From NCBI GenBank assembly GCA_029261575.1, contig JAJDBD010000190.1, positions 1-46,524 on the forward strand: 46,524 nucleotides of DNA. The letters are read 5' to 3'. The notes under the pieces are model-generated. The model was not told the DNA's origin and made no database searches. It worked only from the letters and a program-made list of their open reading frames with translations. Shown here piece after piece: positions 7,271 to 46,429 of the stretch (within the stretch, counting starts at the first letter, position 1; every line of letters begins with the position of its first letter). The translations under genes and the position numbers were made by a program. The DNA comes from Nitrospinaceae bacterium (GTDB lineage Bacteria; Nitrospinota; Nitrospinia; Nitrospinales; JACRGP01).

Positions 7271-7290
7271 GGATTTATTTTAGCACAAGC

Positions 7291-7388
7291 CCAGGCAAGT
7301 GCCTGGAGGCAATAGGCGTGAATCATACGGGAAGTCGACAAGCAAGGGTGCGCTTGCATCTCAAACTTTTCTTCCGGGCATTGCCCGG
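7291..7388. repeat. REP/BIME-like element D: terminal hairpins CCAGGC-AAGT-GCCTGG-AGGC and CCGGGC-ATT-GCCCGG
   Basis: Hairpins at 7291-7306, 7342-7357 (GCAAG/CTTGC) and 7374-7388. First 20 nt match element B at 22009 at 19/20 positions. Confidence 0.6.
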
Positions 7389-7395
7389 TCGCCGG

Positions 7396-19203: not shown

Positions 19204-20709
19204 ATGGATATGGAAAAAGTTAAAAAGCAAATTTCACTGAGCATCCGCGCCCGGTATTCCATCCTCTATCTGCTGACCTGGGAAGAAAACCGGGCCGAAA
19301 ATCTCATTCAGGAGGTTGCGCAAGGCCTGAACAAACAGGTCTATTCCTGGACCATTTCCGAAGGATTGCATCCCGCGCCGGCGGGTAGTTCCAGTTTTCA
19401 CAAACCGGAAGAAGTTTTGAGGTTCATCGGCTCCTGTAATGAAAAAGCCATTTTTGTACTCAAGGATTTTCATCCATTTCTGGAAAAAGAACTCGTGGTT
19501 CGCCTGCTGAGAGACCTTTCGGGAACCCTTCGCCGCAGTTTCAAAACCATCATTCTGCTTTCTCCGGAGTTGACCATTCCCAAGGAATTGGAGAAAGACG
19601 TTTCTGTTTTCGACCTTCCGTTTCCCGACTCACGGGAGCTGGAAGACACGTTGCACAAGCTCCTGGCTCCCTACAAGCAGTCCAAGGACGTCCAGGTGGA
19701 CCTGAGCGCGGAGCTGACGGAGAAGGTGGTCCGGGCCACGCTGGGCCTCACCAAAAACGAGGCGGAAAACGTTTACGCCAAGGCCTTGTTGAGCAGCCGG
19801 CGCTTTTCTGAAGACGATCTACCCGACATCATCGAGGAAAAAAAACAATTGATCCGCAAATCCGGTCTGTTGGAATTTATCGGGTTTTCGGCCCACATGA
19901 ATAACGTCGGCGGACTGGAAGAATTAAAGCGCTGGCTCCAGCGCCGCTCCACGGCGTTCACGGATAAGGCCCGCCAGTACGGGCTTCCCCAGCCGAAGGG
20001 ATTGTTGATGGTGGGCGTACAGGGTTGCGGGAAAAGCCTTTCCGCCAAGGCGATTGCGGCGGAATGGAACCTCCCGCTTTTGCGGTTGGACGTCGGCCAG
20101 ATTTTTGATTCCTTCATCGGCAACTCGGAAGCCAATATGCGAAAAGCCATCGCCCTGGCCGAGGCCATGAGTCCCGCCATTTTGTGGCTGGACGAAATCG
20201 AAAAAGGATTTTCCGGAACCATGGGATCGGGCGGCAACGATTCCGGGGTGACGGCCCGCGTGTTTGGCACCTTCCTCACCTGGATGCAGGAAAAAAGGAA
20301 TCCGGTTTTTGTGATCGCCACGGCCAACAACATCGAGCAGTTGCCTCCCGAACTTTTACGCAAGGGGCGCTTTGACGAAATATTTTTTATCGATCTGCCG
20401 GGCCTGGAAGAGCGCAAACATATTTTCAAAATCCATATTCAGTTGAAAAAGCGGGATCCGGAAAAGTTTGATATTACCGGTTTGGCGGAAGCGGCGAATA
20501 ATTTCAGCGGAGCGGAAATCGAGGAGGCGGTGGTTTCTTCCATGTATCGGGGATTCTCCGAAAACCGCGAGTTCAACTCCGACGACATTTTAATTTCCAT
20601 TAAAGAGACGGTTCCCCTGGCCGTGACGGCCCGCGAAAGGATTGATGAGTTGAGGGAGTGGGCCAAGCAAAGAGCGCGTCCCGCCTCGCCGCCGGGCAAC
20701 GCCCGGTAG
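19204..20709 (+). CDS. AAA+ ATPase of the Ycf46 family
   Basis: PKGLLMVGVQGCGKSLSAKAIAAEWNLPLLRLDVGQIFDSFIGNSEANMRKAIALAEAMSPAILWLDEIEKGF, plus the approx. 230-aa Ycf46-type N-terminal region. Confidence 0.9.
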   Translation: MDMEKVKKQISLSIRARYSILYLLTWEENRAENLIQEVAQGLNKQVYSWTISEGLHPAPAGSSSFHKPEEVLRFIGSCNEKAIFVLKDFHPFLEKELVVRLLRDLSGTLRRSFKTIILLSPELTIPKELEKDVSVFDLPFPDSRELEDTLHKLLAPYKQSKDVQVDLSAELTEKVVRATLGLTKNEAENVYAKALLSSRRFSEDDLPDIIEEKKQLIRKSGLLEFIGFSAHMNNVGGLEELKRWLQRRSTAFTDKARQYGLPQPKGLLMVGVQGCGKSLSAKAIAAEWNLPLLRLDVGQIFDSFIGNSEANMRKAIALAEAMSPAILWLDEIEKGFSGTMGSGGNDSGVTARVFGTFLTWMQEKRNPVFVIATANNIEQLPPELLRKGRFDEIFFIDLPGLEERKHIFKIHIQLKKRDPEKFDITGLAEAANNFSGAEIEEAVVSSMYRGFSENREFNSDDILISIKETVPLAVTARERIDELREWAKQRARPASPPGNAR

Positions 20710-20878
20710 CCAGCGTACCGCTGGACCTAATAGTTGGCGAATGGAAAATTGTCTTGATCTGGACTTCAACTCGCCGATCTTTCGTTTTTCCTCAATTGCA
20801 TTCGAGTCGCAAACTCACCGCAACCTGTAGCTTCCCTTAAACGTTACACTATCTGCCTCCGGGGGCTTCCCCGGCTGG
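20692..20878. repeat. REP/BIME-like element A
   Basis: Head hairpin CCGGGC-AAC-GCCCGG (20692-20706), GTAG, second hairpin CCAGCG-TAC-CGCTGG (20710-20724), inverted tail CCGGGG-GCTT-CCCCGG (20859-20874). Confidence 0.65.
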
Positions 20879-21996: not shown

Positions 21997-22042
21997 GCCT
22001 GGCGCGAGCCAGGCAAGCGCCTGGAGGCCGGCGTACCGCCGG
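21997..22042. repeat. REP-like element B (double hairpin)
   Basis: CCAGGC-AAGC-GCCTGG (22009-22024), GGAG, CCGGCG-TAC-CGCCGG (22028-22042); alternative hairpin GCCTGGC-GCGA-GCCAGGC (21997-22014). Confidence 0.6.
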
Positions 22043-22293
22043 TGGTAATGGTTGACGAATGCGCAGTTTTCCTCAACGTGGATTCTAACTGCCGAACTTT
22101 CGTTATTGGATTCTACTAGTCCCGAAGCCTCGCCGCGTTAGCTGTCAGCCTTTCCCAGGTCTCAATAATCCCGTTGCGAACGGCCTTCTTAATAAGAGAT
22201 AATGGAGTTTAACGATAGGAAACCGATTGCCCGCCGAGGCGCCGAGGATGTTTCATCCTTGGATTCCGCGTTTCTGAAGTCGTAAATCAAACT

Positions 22294-29834: not shown

Positions 29835-30059
29835 TCATTTCAATTTTGTGAAATCTTCGAGAGTTAATCCTGCGTCCTTAACAATCCGGGCCAATGTGCC
29901 CTTTTTTAATTCGGGGTGAAGCGGAACAATTATCTTTAAGGTTTCTTCGGGTAAGGGTTTTTCCAAACGGACATGAGAACCCTTTTGTCGCGTCTCCACA
30001 AAGCCGATTTGTTTAAGTTTTTTGATAAGGTCGACTCCGGAAAGAACGGGAAGTTTCAT
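29835..30059 (-). CDS. hicA: HicA-family mRNA interferase toxin
   Basis: SGVDLIKKLKQIGFVETRQKGSHVRLEKP...IIVPLHPELKKGTLARIVKDAGLT. Confidence 0.92.
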   Translation of the reverse strand: MKLPVLSGVDLIKKLKQIGFVETRQKGSHVRLEKPLPEETLKIIVPLHPELKKGTLARIVKDAGLTLEDFTKLK

Positions 30060-30256
30060 AAGGTCAGAGTGATTTTCTCTCCTTCCAACTCGATCAACTC
30101 CTCCGCATCTGATTCCAGATAAAGTTCAATCGCCTCTTTTATATTTTCCACGGCCTCCTCCCTGGAGTCTCCCTGGGAGACACAACCTTTAAGAGAAGGA
30201 ACGTGAGCGGTAAACCCGCCTTCTTCCTGGGATTCTAAAATCACGGTGAACTTCAT
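30056..30256 (-). CDS. hicB: HicB-family antitoxin (short form)
   Basis: FTVILESQEEGGFTAHVPSLKGCVSQGDSREEAVENIKEAIELYLES; 4-nt overlap with hicA. Confidence 0.92.
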   Translation of the reverse strand: MKFTVILESQEEGGFTAHVPSLKGCVSQGDSREEAVENIKEAIELYLESDAEELIELEGEKITLTL

Positions 30257-32342: not shown

Positions 32343-32565
32343 AGCGGGAAAGAATCGAAAGGGTTGTGTTTTGTTGGTTATTGTCTTTCATTCAGGTTAG
32401 CGGAAAACTGAACCCAAATCAATGCGAACAGAGAGGAGGACCCGTTGGCAGAAAAAAGTTTGAACCACCGGTGGGTACAGATAAACACGGAAAGTTTTCA
32501 AGTTAAAAATACTGGCCCCGGCGCCTCGCCGGCGGATGAAAGTGGTATACTTCCAAGCAACGCTA

Positions 32566-42297: not shown

Positions 42298-42466
42298 GTC
42301 ATTGCGAGGAGCGTTAGCGACGCGGCAATCCACCGGGGACGCCCCCGGAGGCAGAGTTTGAGACGCCAAACTCACTGAAACCCGAGCCGCTTTCCTTAAA
42401 TGTTCACTAATTGCCTGCGGGCGCTTGCCCGCCTGGATTGCTTCGGCTAAATGGCCTCGCAATGAC
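42298..42466. repeat. Composite palindromic repeat C: outer GTCATTGCGAGG...CCTCGCAATGAC arms with a REP/BIME-like element inside
   Basis: Outer arms 42298-42309 and 42455-42466 (12/12), inner arms GCAATCC/GGATTGC; inside: CCGGGG-ACGC-CCCCGG (42333-42348), GAGTTTG-AGACGC-CAAACTC (42354-42373), GCGGGC-GCTT-GCCCGC (42417-42432). Confidence 0.75.
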
Positions 42467-43693: not shown

Positions 43694-46429
43694 TTAATTC
43701 AATCCCGAGAAGTTGGCGGAGCTGAAGGCGCGGCTGTCCTGCATGTCGCCGATGAACTCCATCGCAAAGCCGGTGGCGGAGGACGAAATCACAATCGCTC
43801 CCCAGAACGTTAACGCTCTAATGTCCCCAAAGCCGCTGCCGGAAATGCTCGCGCCTCCCAGTTTCACTAACGGGTTGGTTGCTTTGGAACTGAACCCAAG
43901 GTTTCCCGTCCCCATCCCAGAGCTGTCGATGATCAAAAACCGGTCTCCGGGATTGCTGACTGGACCAAAGAAAAAGTTAGTTGTGGTGATGAACGCTCTT
44001 TGCACATTTCCGGACATTACCGTAAACTCCAGCGATCCCTGCAGGCTGCCGTCCGTATTCAGGGCGGTCATGACAACGCCGACGGTCGAGTTCATCCCGG
44101 AAAGCGAGGCGTGGCCGACGGAGATGAACGTGTATATACCCGCCTCGGATTGCCAGTAGGGCGACACGACGTCGAACGGCGGTAAAAAGGCGGAAGGGGC
44201 CGAAGGCTGGGGTATCAAATATTTAATCACAAAGGAGTCGAATGACCCCCCTAGAGTTGAATCAATCGGGCTCACTGTCGGAAAATCCGTGGAAGATGTA
44301 CCTCCTACAACATAGGCATTTCCCGAAGAATCCACGGCAATGCCCATTCCATCCTCAACGGTCGCGCCACCCAGATAAGTGGATAAAGTCAGCGTCGAAC
44401 CGGTCGCATTCAATATAGAAACGTAACCGTCTTGTGTCCCTCCCAGGGTTGAATCGATGGATCCTCCCACAAACGGGAAGTCAGTTGAAGTTGTACTTCC
44501 TGTAACATAGGCATTTCCCGAAGAATCCACGGCAATACCACCTCCAAAGGAAGTCTCATCACTTGCGCCCCCCAGATAAGTGGAATAAACCAGCGCCGAA
44601 CCGACGGCGTTCAATTTAGAAACAAAACCGTCTTGCGTCCCACCAAGTGTGGAATCGATGGCACTCACAGTCGGAAAGTCCGAGGAACCTGTAAAACCTG
44701 TAACGTAAGCGTTTCCCGAAGAGTCCACGGCAATATCTTTTCCAATGTCAGAAACCGTGCCTCCAAGGTAAGTGGAATAGGTCAGCGCCGAACCGGCCGC
44801 ATTCAATTTAGACACAAACGCGTCCGTCCCATCCTGAGAGGAATCAACGCCTCCCACAAACGGGAAGTCCGAGGAATCGGTTTGTCCTGTAACATAAGCA
44901 TTACCGGATGAATCCACTACAATTCCCCATACAATATCAGAAGAACCGGCGCCCCCCAGATAGGTGGAATAAGTCAGCGCCGAACCCGCCGCATTTAACT
45001 TGGATACGAAACCGTCTTGCGCCCCACCAAGTGTGGAATCGATGGCGCTCACAGTCGGAAAGTCCGAGGAGGTTGTATGTCCTGTAACGTAAGCGTTGCC
45101 CGATGTATCCACGGTAATACCCTCTCCCCGTTCAACGGCCGTGCCTCCAAGGTAAGTAGAATAAGTCAGCGCCGAACCCGCCGCATTCAACTTGGACACA
45201 AAGGCGTCGGTTGAATTCTGGGTCGTATCGAGTGCGCCCCCCGTGGTCGGAAAATCTGAGGAAGTCGTTTGGCCTGTAACATAAGCGTTGCCCGATGAAT
45301 CCACGGCAATTTCACTCGCTAATTCAAAGGACACGCCCCCCAAATAAGTGGAATAAGTCAGAGCCGAACCCGCGGCGTTCAACTTGAACACGAAGGCGTC
45401 TCTTGTCCCCCCCCGGGTGGAATCAATGGAGCCCCCCACAAAAGGAAAGTCCGAGGACAGGGTTTGCCCCGTAACGTAAACGTTTTCCGAAGAATCCACG
45501 GCAATGCCATATCCATGATCAAAAGCAGATCCTCCCAGATAAGTGGAAAACGACACACTGGGATCGATCACCAGACTTTTTCCCTGATCGTACTCGCCGA
45601 TACGGAAACCGACAAGATCCTCGCCCAGCAAAACGTAACGGCCCTGAACGGGAATTCGTTTTTCACCGACCAATTGATAAATAACCGGAGCGTTTTGCAC
45701 GACGCGTCCTGATTCCACTTTAAGAATCAGGTTGCCCGACTCGTCAATTTCTACCGCGTCCTGTCCCTCGAATTTTATTTTAATGATATCCGGGTCGGCT
45801 CCGGGCGAAACAACAAAATCGTATTCCAACCGGCGCGGGTTGCCGTAATAGATCAGGTCGATTCCGGGATAAGCCTCCTCGTAGCGCACCCGGCCATAGT
45901 TTGTTATTTCCGTCAGCCATTTCTCAGGATCGGAGCCGATGAAGTAATTACTTTTGGTAATCAGTTCGTCCTCGCCGAGCATTTTTGGCGAAGGGTTGGC
46001 GTTCAACAAACTCATACTCACAACAGCGCGCCGGGTTTCGCTATTTTCAAGAGAAACTTTTTTAACGGAATCGGTTGCCGCCTTTGCCGGTCCTATCGGA
46101 AGAGCCATCACCGCCGATTGCGGAGTCAGAAACAGGGAGTAACCCTTGTCCCGCGCCAGGAACTTTACCCGCTCGTCCGTCTGGCCGACGTTGGCCTCGA
46201 AGCGGATGGGAAGCTTGCCGTAGGAATCGCTCAGCCGAGCATTTATCTCAGGCTTAGCCGGATTGGAAATTTTTTCAGGCGTGGGTTCAGAATCGAAGTT
46301 TTTATTCTGGAACGTTTTGGAATACAGGAAAACTGAAAAGACAAGGCAAGAAAATAGCAGGACGGGTAACGAGAGTTTTGAACCCAACATATCTCCCCCT
46401 GGATATAGAAATAGAACAAGCCGATACAA
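43694..46429 (-). CDS. SBBP-repeat beta-propeller protein, exported
   Basis: N-terminal hydrophobic segment, LPIRFEANVGQTDERVKFLARDKGYSLFLTPQSAVMAL block, then seven SBBP-type repeats (YSTYLGG...GIAVDSSGNAYVTGQTTSSDFPT...DAFVSKLNAAGSALT). Confidence 0.92.
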   Translation of the reverse strand: MYRLVLFLYPGGDMLGSKLSLPVLLFSCLVFSVFLYSKTFQNKNFDSEPTPEKISNPAKPEINARLSDSYGKLPIRFEANVGQTDERVKFLARDKGYSLFLTPQSAVMALPIGPAKAATDSVKKVSLENSETRRAVVSMSLLNANPSPKMLGEDELITKSNYFIGSDPEKWLTEITNYGRVRYEEAYPGIDLIYYGNPRRLEYDFVVSPGADPDIIKIKFEGQDAVEIDESGNLILKVESGRVVQNAPVIYQLVGEKRIPVQGRYVLLGEDLVGFRIGEYDQGKSLVIDPSVSFSTYLGGSAFDHGYGIAVDSSENVYVTGQTLSSDFPFVGGSIDSTRGGTRDAFVFKLNAAGSALTYSTYLGGVSFELASEIAVDSSGNAYVTGQTTSSDFPTTGGALDTTQNSTDAFVSKLNAAGSALTYSTYLGGTAVERGEGITVDTSGNAYVTGHTTSSDFPTVSAIDSTLGGAQDGFVSKLNAAGSALTYSTYLGGAGSSDIVWGIVVDSSGNAYVTGQTDSSDFPFVGGVDSSQDGTDAFVSKLNAAGSALTYSTYLGGTVSDIGKDIAVDSSGNAYVTGFTGSSDFPTVSAIDSTLGGTQDGFVSKLNAVGSALVYSTYLGGASDETSFGGGIAVDSSGNAYVTGSTTSTDFPFVGGSIDSTLGGTQDGYVSILNATGSTLTLSTYLGGATVEDGMGIAVDSSGNAYVVGGTSSTDFPTVSPIDSTLGGSFDSFVIKYLIPQPSAPSAFLPPFDVVSPYWQSEAGIYTFISVGHASLSGMNSTVGVVMTALNTDGSLQGSLEFTVMSGNVQRAFITTTNFFFGPVSNPGDRFLIIDSSGMGTGNLGFSSKATNPLVKLGGASISGSGFGDIRALTFWGAIVISSSATGFAMEFIGDMQDSRAFSSANFSGLN
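44215..45556 (-). repeat. In-frame tandem coding repeats, 7 units of about 63-66 codons
   Basis: Repeated 'SSTYLGG...DSSGNAYVTG...FVSKLNAAGSALTY' units visible in both protein and DNA (e.g. agataagtggaataagtcagcgccgaacc recurring). Confidence 0.88.

Follow-up and report, generated by a model that had tools for sequence, protein, structure and literature searches.

The window, by which we mean the whole 46,524-nt stretch analysed here (contig C190 of a Nitrospinaceae MAG of 3.0 Mb in 200 contigs, 86.8% complete), contains four members of a real, abundant and genus-specific family of mosaic repeats, which is BIME-like and, on the available evidence, not a RAYT-REP system. In our preferred reading, to which we give a probability of about 0.7, each of the four loci holds a copy of a mosaic in which a linker sequence, core1, alone or together with a second linker, core2, is capped by exchangeable inverted hairpin cassettes. 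The units would be small, non-autonomous mobile repeats whose spread depended on a putative enzyme acting in trans, and recombination between copies sharing short GC palindromes may have reshuffled caps and linkers; a benefit to the host, if any (the hairpins lie near gene 3′ ends), would be secondary. The initial annotation had proposed a REP/BIME-like family, and this was borne out by dozens to hundreds of intergenic copies with inverted hairpin pairs and preserved pairing. The comparisons below involve the window's own genome (G000), a congener (G001), two genomes of a sister genus in the same family (G002 and G004) and a third genus (G003).

All of the hairpin sequences quoted in the annotation were located in the window (D, head and tail of A, B, head and tail of C; Table 1), and the 20-mer pattern gave five matches there against 0.24 expected. 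The hairpins had been described as a repeated architecture of stem, loop, stem and flank; their sequences were confirmed, but the units are hairpin-linker-hairpin elements of approximately 100–190 bp and not isolated REPs. Specifically, D and C have the layout hairpin-core1-hairpin, A has hairpin-hairpin-core2-core1-hairpin and B has hairpin-hairpin-core2. The tails of A and C are inverted hairpins, as had been noticed, and so is the right-hand hairpin of D. Of the description of the four loci as intergenic, the head of A has to be excepted, the left junction of this element falling inside the 3′ end of an AAA-ATPase ORF (19204-20709) whose last codons and TAG stop are supplied by the element (SPPGNAR*), where the congener ends in SLKAD*. 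The lone fifth hairpin of the window has no counterpart in the congener's orthologous spacer.

Table 1. Elements of the hairpin-linker family and associated features. Positions are those of the window, except in the last row, where loci of the sister genus are given; R1 denotes the hairpin + core1 model.
Feature	Position	Strand	Details
Element D	7291-7388	+	hairpin CCAGGC-AAGT-GCCTGG 7291-7306, tag AGGC, core1 7310-7365, inverted hairpin CCGGGC-ATT-GCCCGG 7374-7388
Element D, match to R1	7288-7392	+	quoted 20-mer at 7291-7310
Element A, full form	20692-20874	linkers on -	hairpins CCGGGC-AAC-GCCCGG 20692-20706 and CCAGCG-TAC-CGCTGG 20710-20724
Element A, linkers and right cap		-	core2 20729-20788, core1 20801-20855 (- strand), hairpin CCGGGG-GCTT-CCCCGG 20859-20874
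Element A, match to R1	20774-20877	-	
Element B	22009-22108	-	hairpin CCAGGC-AAGC-GCCTGG 22009-22024, tag AGGC, second hairpin CCGGCG-TAC-CGCCGG 22028-22042
Element B, linker	22047-22108	-	core2, without core1; quoted 20-mer at 22009-22028
Element C	42333-42432	-	hairpin CCGGGG-ACGC-CCCCGG 42333-42348, core1 42357-42412 (- strand), hairpin GCGGGC-GCTT-GCCCGC 42417-42432
Element C, match to R1	42330-42435	-	quoted 20-mer (head) at 42333-42352
Outer palindrome around element C	42298-42466	.	GTCATTGCGAGGAGC...GGCAATCCA / TGGATTGC...CCTCGCAATGAC; element C in the centre; 8 bp of flank complementarity
Lone fifth hairpin	32518-32532	.	CCGGCG-CCT-CGCCGG; same class set; in divergent spacer
TIR MITE family (G002/G004)	L235-L254 and L195-L214		empty 155-bp and filled 200-408-bp forms

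That the four loci belong to one family was confirmed by exact matches to the hairpin plus 3′ tag pattern, which numbered 101 in G000 against 1 for a control in which the pattern was read backwards. The same pattern matched 70 times in G001, 108 times in G002 and 50 times in G004 (controls 0–2), 0 times in G003 (96% complete) and 0–3 times in other genomes of the order. A BLAST search with element A found 57 places in its own genome, and the inter-hairpin sequence, used as a profile, defined core1 (57 nt) with 108 distinct copies in the searched part of G000. The annotation had suggested a genome-wide model scan for further copies, and in each of G000 and G001 the hairpin + core1 model indeed returned at least 150 copies, 150 being the ceiling of the scoring, against 0–2 borderline matches in nine other genomes; a de novo k-mer search alone was too insensitive. 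The second linker, core2, is about 64 nt long and often follows core1. The family shares with REP/REPIN sequences a high copy number, an extragenic position, palindromes and their arrangement in inverted pairs. Rfam gave 0 matches at the gathering threshold for the element, core1 or core2, the papers covered by a literature search contained no account of repeats of this kind from Nitrospinae, and to our knowledge neither core1 nor core2 has been described. The median best-paralog identity of copies in the window's genus was 83%, indicating that they are old and that transposition is not seen in action.

The conserved part of the elements is the linker and the variable part the hairpin caps. 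Each cap consists of a GC stem of about 6 bp of the type CCRGSS, a 3–4-nt loop and a 3–4-nt tag, and the caps at the two ends of a linker are inverted, with their tags facing inward. A hairpin lies directly beside core1 in 74 of the 78 copies with an intact left edge and belongs to one of several stem classes, namely CCAGGC, CCGGGG, CCAGCG, CCGGCG, CCGGGC and a class with a TCGCC loop (at least five, about seven in all), so that hairpins of different classes replace one another around the same linker. Several palindrome types and extra-palindromic motifs in alternating orientation, by which BIMEs are recognized, are thus present. The same hairpins also lie beside other dispersed repeats at G000 loci near elements (GACAGGATTAACAGGAT, ACCACCGATGAACACGG, CAGGCTGAGCCTGTCGAAG and CCCCCTTGCAAAGGGGG; e.g. 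L047, L070, L056 and L046), which suggests that these repeats can serve as linkers too.

Both stem arms change together, as the annotation had stated. A perfect 6-bp stem was found in 84 of 125 copies, compared with 19.4 on average, and never more than 34, in 1000 shuffles in which the 3′ arms were dealt to other copies. In a pair count over the named structure, based on an alignment that mis-registers 3-nt loops, 70.9% of positions were paired versus 61.6%, with none of 500 shuffles as high. Pairing is therefore preserved, but the accompanying idea that the sequence drifts was only partly right, since the tag is tied to the stem class, as is expected of whole-cassette exchange: CCAGGC occurs with AGGC (24/25), CCAGCG with ACCC or ACTC (15/18) and the TCGCC class with GGGC (12/14). 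The CCRGGC classes are over-represented in the catalogue, as some of its entries were gathered by means of the hairpin pattern. This association points to stems changing by exchange of whole cassettes (hairpin plus 3–4-nt tag) more than by drift, a view drawn from the mosaic pattern and not from observed events. A few G-T or A-C stem intermediates were seen, so point changes occur too. The tag had also been likened to the GTAG or GGAG tetranucleotide of REPs, a comparison that does not hold, since it lies 3′ of the hairpin, inside the element, and reads AGGC, GGGC, ACCC or GGCC according to stem class instead of GTAG or GGAG at the 5′ foot. No constant tetranucleotide was found 5′ of the hairpin, where no base is conserved beyond a G.

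In an unbiased 446-kb sample (contigs picked by size), 27 of 29 core1 copies were intergenic; of the other two, one fell inside a called gene and the second at the end of a piece. Hairpins were depleted in divergent spacers (4 of 48 against 27% expected, p = 0.0016; p = 0.038 in the congener, whose sample consisted partly of contigs chosen for having matches), and elements lay nearer the upstream stop (52–69 nt) than the downstream start (115–153 nt), the gene calls, made with a simple codon-usage script, being approximate. Relative to transcription, core1 had the same orientation in 4 cases and the opposite in 15 in G000, compared with 28 and 20 in G001, and was thus inconsistent between the genomes.

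The linkers are genus-restricted and turn over between congeners. Of 35 orthologous spacers compared between G000 and G001, seven were occupied by an element in at least one of the two genomes, and core1 was present on both sides in just two, those of A and C. In spacer A, core1 has the same orientation in the two genomes, with core2 and the head hairpins present only in G000, and in spacer C the core1 of the congener runs the other way and is accompanied by different hairpins. In spacer B, the first hairpin is common to both and the interior sequence differs. A single empty site, itself approximate, was seen in the congener (C73 31615, about 124 bp absent), the spacers being too diverged between congeners for exact junctions to be defined.

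In the sister genus, core1 is absent and the same hairpin classes cap another linker, M98, with caps again exchanged. The M98 units (98–100 bp) occur in many cases inside a TA-flanked MITE with the TIR GAGCGTCTAACAAAATGA (159 ends in G002 and 98 in G004) and also outside it. When empty and filled MITEs were compared, the insertion point of a 98-bp unit could be fixed precisely as CCCTCCC^TCAAGGG, without loss of target sequence; the seven copies that show it probably go back to one event amplified with the MITE. An M98 unit in the other orientation was found at CCCCCTTGA^AGGGGG, likewise in a hairpin loop and without target loss, and other units fill the central hairpin of the MITE, GTGAAAAGCC...CACCC. 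The presence of units in these hairpin loops indicates that at least some insertion in the sister genus is palindrome-directed. An IS200/IS605-like TTGA target was considered and rejected, as this motif precedes M98 in two MITE loops and is missing at other M98 copies; a PATE of the IS200/IS605 type was rejected as well, in that there was no fixed tetranucleotide target and no Y1 gene was found in the window's genus.

In the window, the position of element C in the middle of a palindrome with complementary flanks (Table 1) suggests insertion into that palindrome, a reading that cannot be generalized. The outer flanks of 85 core1 units from G000 and G001 showed a mean complementarity of 2.78, against 2.79 after shuffling, and loop-directed insertion is thus not general in these two genomes. 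Their core1 units showed no shared TIR, conserved junction or flanking sequence at the unit ends and no conserved target sequence at the outer ends. No transposase or other enzyme could be linked to the family. As candidate mobilizers, an IS110-type transposase (PF02371) was not found, and of three rve/IS3-type genes in G000 none was bounded by the hairpins.

The evolution of REPs and BIMEs is usually explained by a RAYT acting on a 5′ GTAG tag. TnpA-REP recognizes and cleaves its substrate via a 5′ GTAG-type motif (PMC8266576). The annotation had accordingly linked the hairpins to such an enzyme, and a REP/REPIN family moved by a RAYT (TnpA-REP, Y1 HUH) whose gene has been lost or lies outside the assembled sequence would agree with the inverted hairpin pairs, the high copy number, and the 6-bp stems and 3–4-nt loops, which fit REP dimensions (PMC3733652). 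A search for Y1_Tnp (PF01797) gave 0 matches in G000, G001 and G004, and no Y1 gene was thus found in the window's genus; the MAGs are 71–87% complete, so that this absence is no proof and sequence missing from them is the chief reservation, and deletion is one way in which a REPtron can disappear (PMC3733652). The sister genus does possess a true RAYT, the single Y1 protein of G002 (NF047646, 91.7 bits, cut-off 80; L101, G002:C60, 1405-1941). This gene, however, is bounded not by hairpins of the CCRGSS type but by another palindrome, TGGAG-NGCAAAGCC-TCC-CGGCTTTGC, GGAG-tagged and of two stem types (AAAGCC / AACGCG). Copies of this palindrome number 51 in G002, 28 in G004 and 0 in G000, G001 and G003, and they often form inverted pairs with a spacing of about 32 nt. 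The method can therefore find a RAYT-REP system where one is present, and the hairpin-linker family is not that system. With a 5′ tetranucleotide that is not constant, a 3′ tag that varies with stem class, and a third genus, G003, that has a Y1 gene yet none of the hairpins, the RAYT reading is not supported, and we judge it quite unlikely. The Y1 protein of G003 (L095) is 321 aa long, scores 76.8 bits with the RAYT model, below the 80-bit cut-off, and its C-terminal region matches the C-terminal end of DnaA.

Two other explanations were weighed against a mosaic of mobile units. Caps and linkers might have spread only as passengers, carried within ordinary TIR MITEs that a DDE (IS630/Tc1-like) transposase moves, and the M98 units inside the MITE of G002 and G004 would speak for this; the TIR, however, is absent from G000, G001 and G003, in spite of the abundance of core1 in the first two, M98 also stands outside the MITE, and sequence shared by the flanks of core1 units was not found in the window's genus, so that this origin appears very improbable. 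A cis-acting RNA at transcript 3′ ends (a terminator or an mRNA-stabilizing hairpin), its stems kept by selection on the RNA, would account for the preserved pairing, the depletion in divergent spacers and the proximity to the upstream stop. We nevertheless give this explanation little credence, given the inconsistent orientation relative to transcription, the lack of an Rfam match and the strong turnover between congeners. RNAalifold gave no conserved pairs within core1, and a scripted search only short, weak helices of 4–5 pairs; in addition, a 3′ bias is equally expected from selection against promoter damage.

Hairpins of the same kind were also detected in other phyla. An exact 21-mer, GCCAGGCAAGCGCCTGGAGGC, that caps genus-specific linkers in Nitrospinaceae occurs in the gut Clostridia RGIG5399 and in Ruminococcus RUG11844, where the hairpin + tag pattern matched 11 and 38 times, respectively (controls 0). 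In these genomes, the hairpins stand beside other conserved linkers (e.g. AGTTCCGATTTTACTTTACCGTGACGGTCAGTTGGTCTCCGCG); the caps are exchanged there too, and hairpins also form tandem arrays. In Ruminococcus RUG11844 (L260-L276), a hairpin with AGGC was seen with a different linker, and hairpin arrays had a period of 27 nt. This sharing may equally be due to a common mechanism, to transfer or to convergence. The occurrence in gut Firmicutes raises the alternative of one mechanism versus strong convergence across phyla. It is conceivable, if doubtful, that hairpin + tag cassettes are mobile or recombinogenic in their own right across phyla, capping any linker and favouring hairpin loops or neighbouring hairpins under the action of an enzyme.

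Taken as a mosaic of non-autonomous units, the family can be placed beside several known systems. The BIMEs of Enterobacteria, in which palindromic units (y, z1, z2) are combined with extra-palindromic motifs into a mosaic (PMC8266576), are alike in being intergenic and high in copy number, with inverted pairs of several palindrome types, non-palindromic linkers, and tandem and truncated forms. They differ in that the present family has no GTAG at the 5′ foot and no RAYT was found with it, its stems are short and perfect (about 6 bp) and lack the y/z bulge, and about seven stem classes exchange around one linker. REPINs and GTAG- or CGTC-tagged REPs resemble it in their small palindromes, complementary stem changes, inverted dimers 20–100 bp apart and preference for tandem and convergent spacers (PMC3733652, PMC3116915); in the present family, by contrast, the tag follows the hairpin on its 3′ side and differs from one stem class to another, a tyrosine transposase was not found, and it is the linker that is conserved and the hairpins that vary. 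The closest parallel in behaviour is SMR-A of Haloquadratum, an element of about 110 bp with prominent inverted ends that occurs in tens of copies without target duplication and inside palindromes of other elements, its mobilization being unknown (PMC3119063). The M98 units of the sister genus likewise sit in MITE hairpin loops without target loss. SMR-A, however, is archaeal, with conservation commonly >95% within a type, whereas the ends of the present family are exchangeable and its copies diverged. Transposases can also aim at palindromic REP sites, as described for IS1397, ISKpn1, IS621 and ISPpu9 (PMC1525189), but these are autonomous IS elements, and an IS110-type transposase was not found in the hairpin-linker genome. 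The present case is one of a large palindromic family without a detectable RAYT, beside a genus in which a true RAYT-REP system is present. This contrast offers a way of testing how BIMEs arise and whether the caps can move independently of the linkers.

Two further features of the window were recorded. A HicA toxin / HicB-like antitoxin pair is encoded at 29835-30256 (-), and the orthologous spacer of the congener is without it. A 911-aa protein encoded at 43694-46429 (-) contains seven SBBP beta-propeller repeats and a DUF7948 domain, with internal DNA repeats of about 192 nt.
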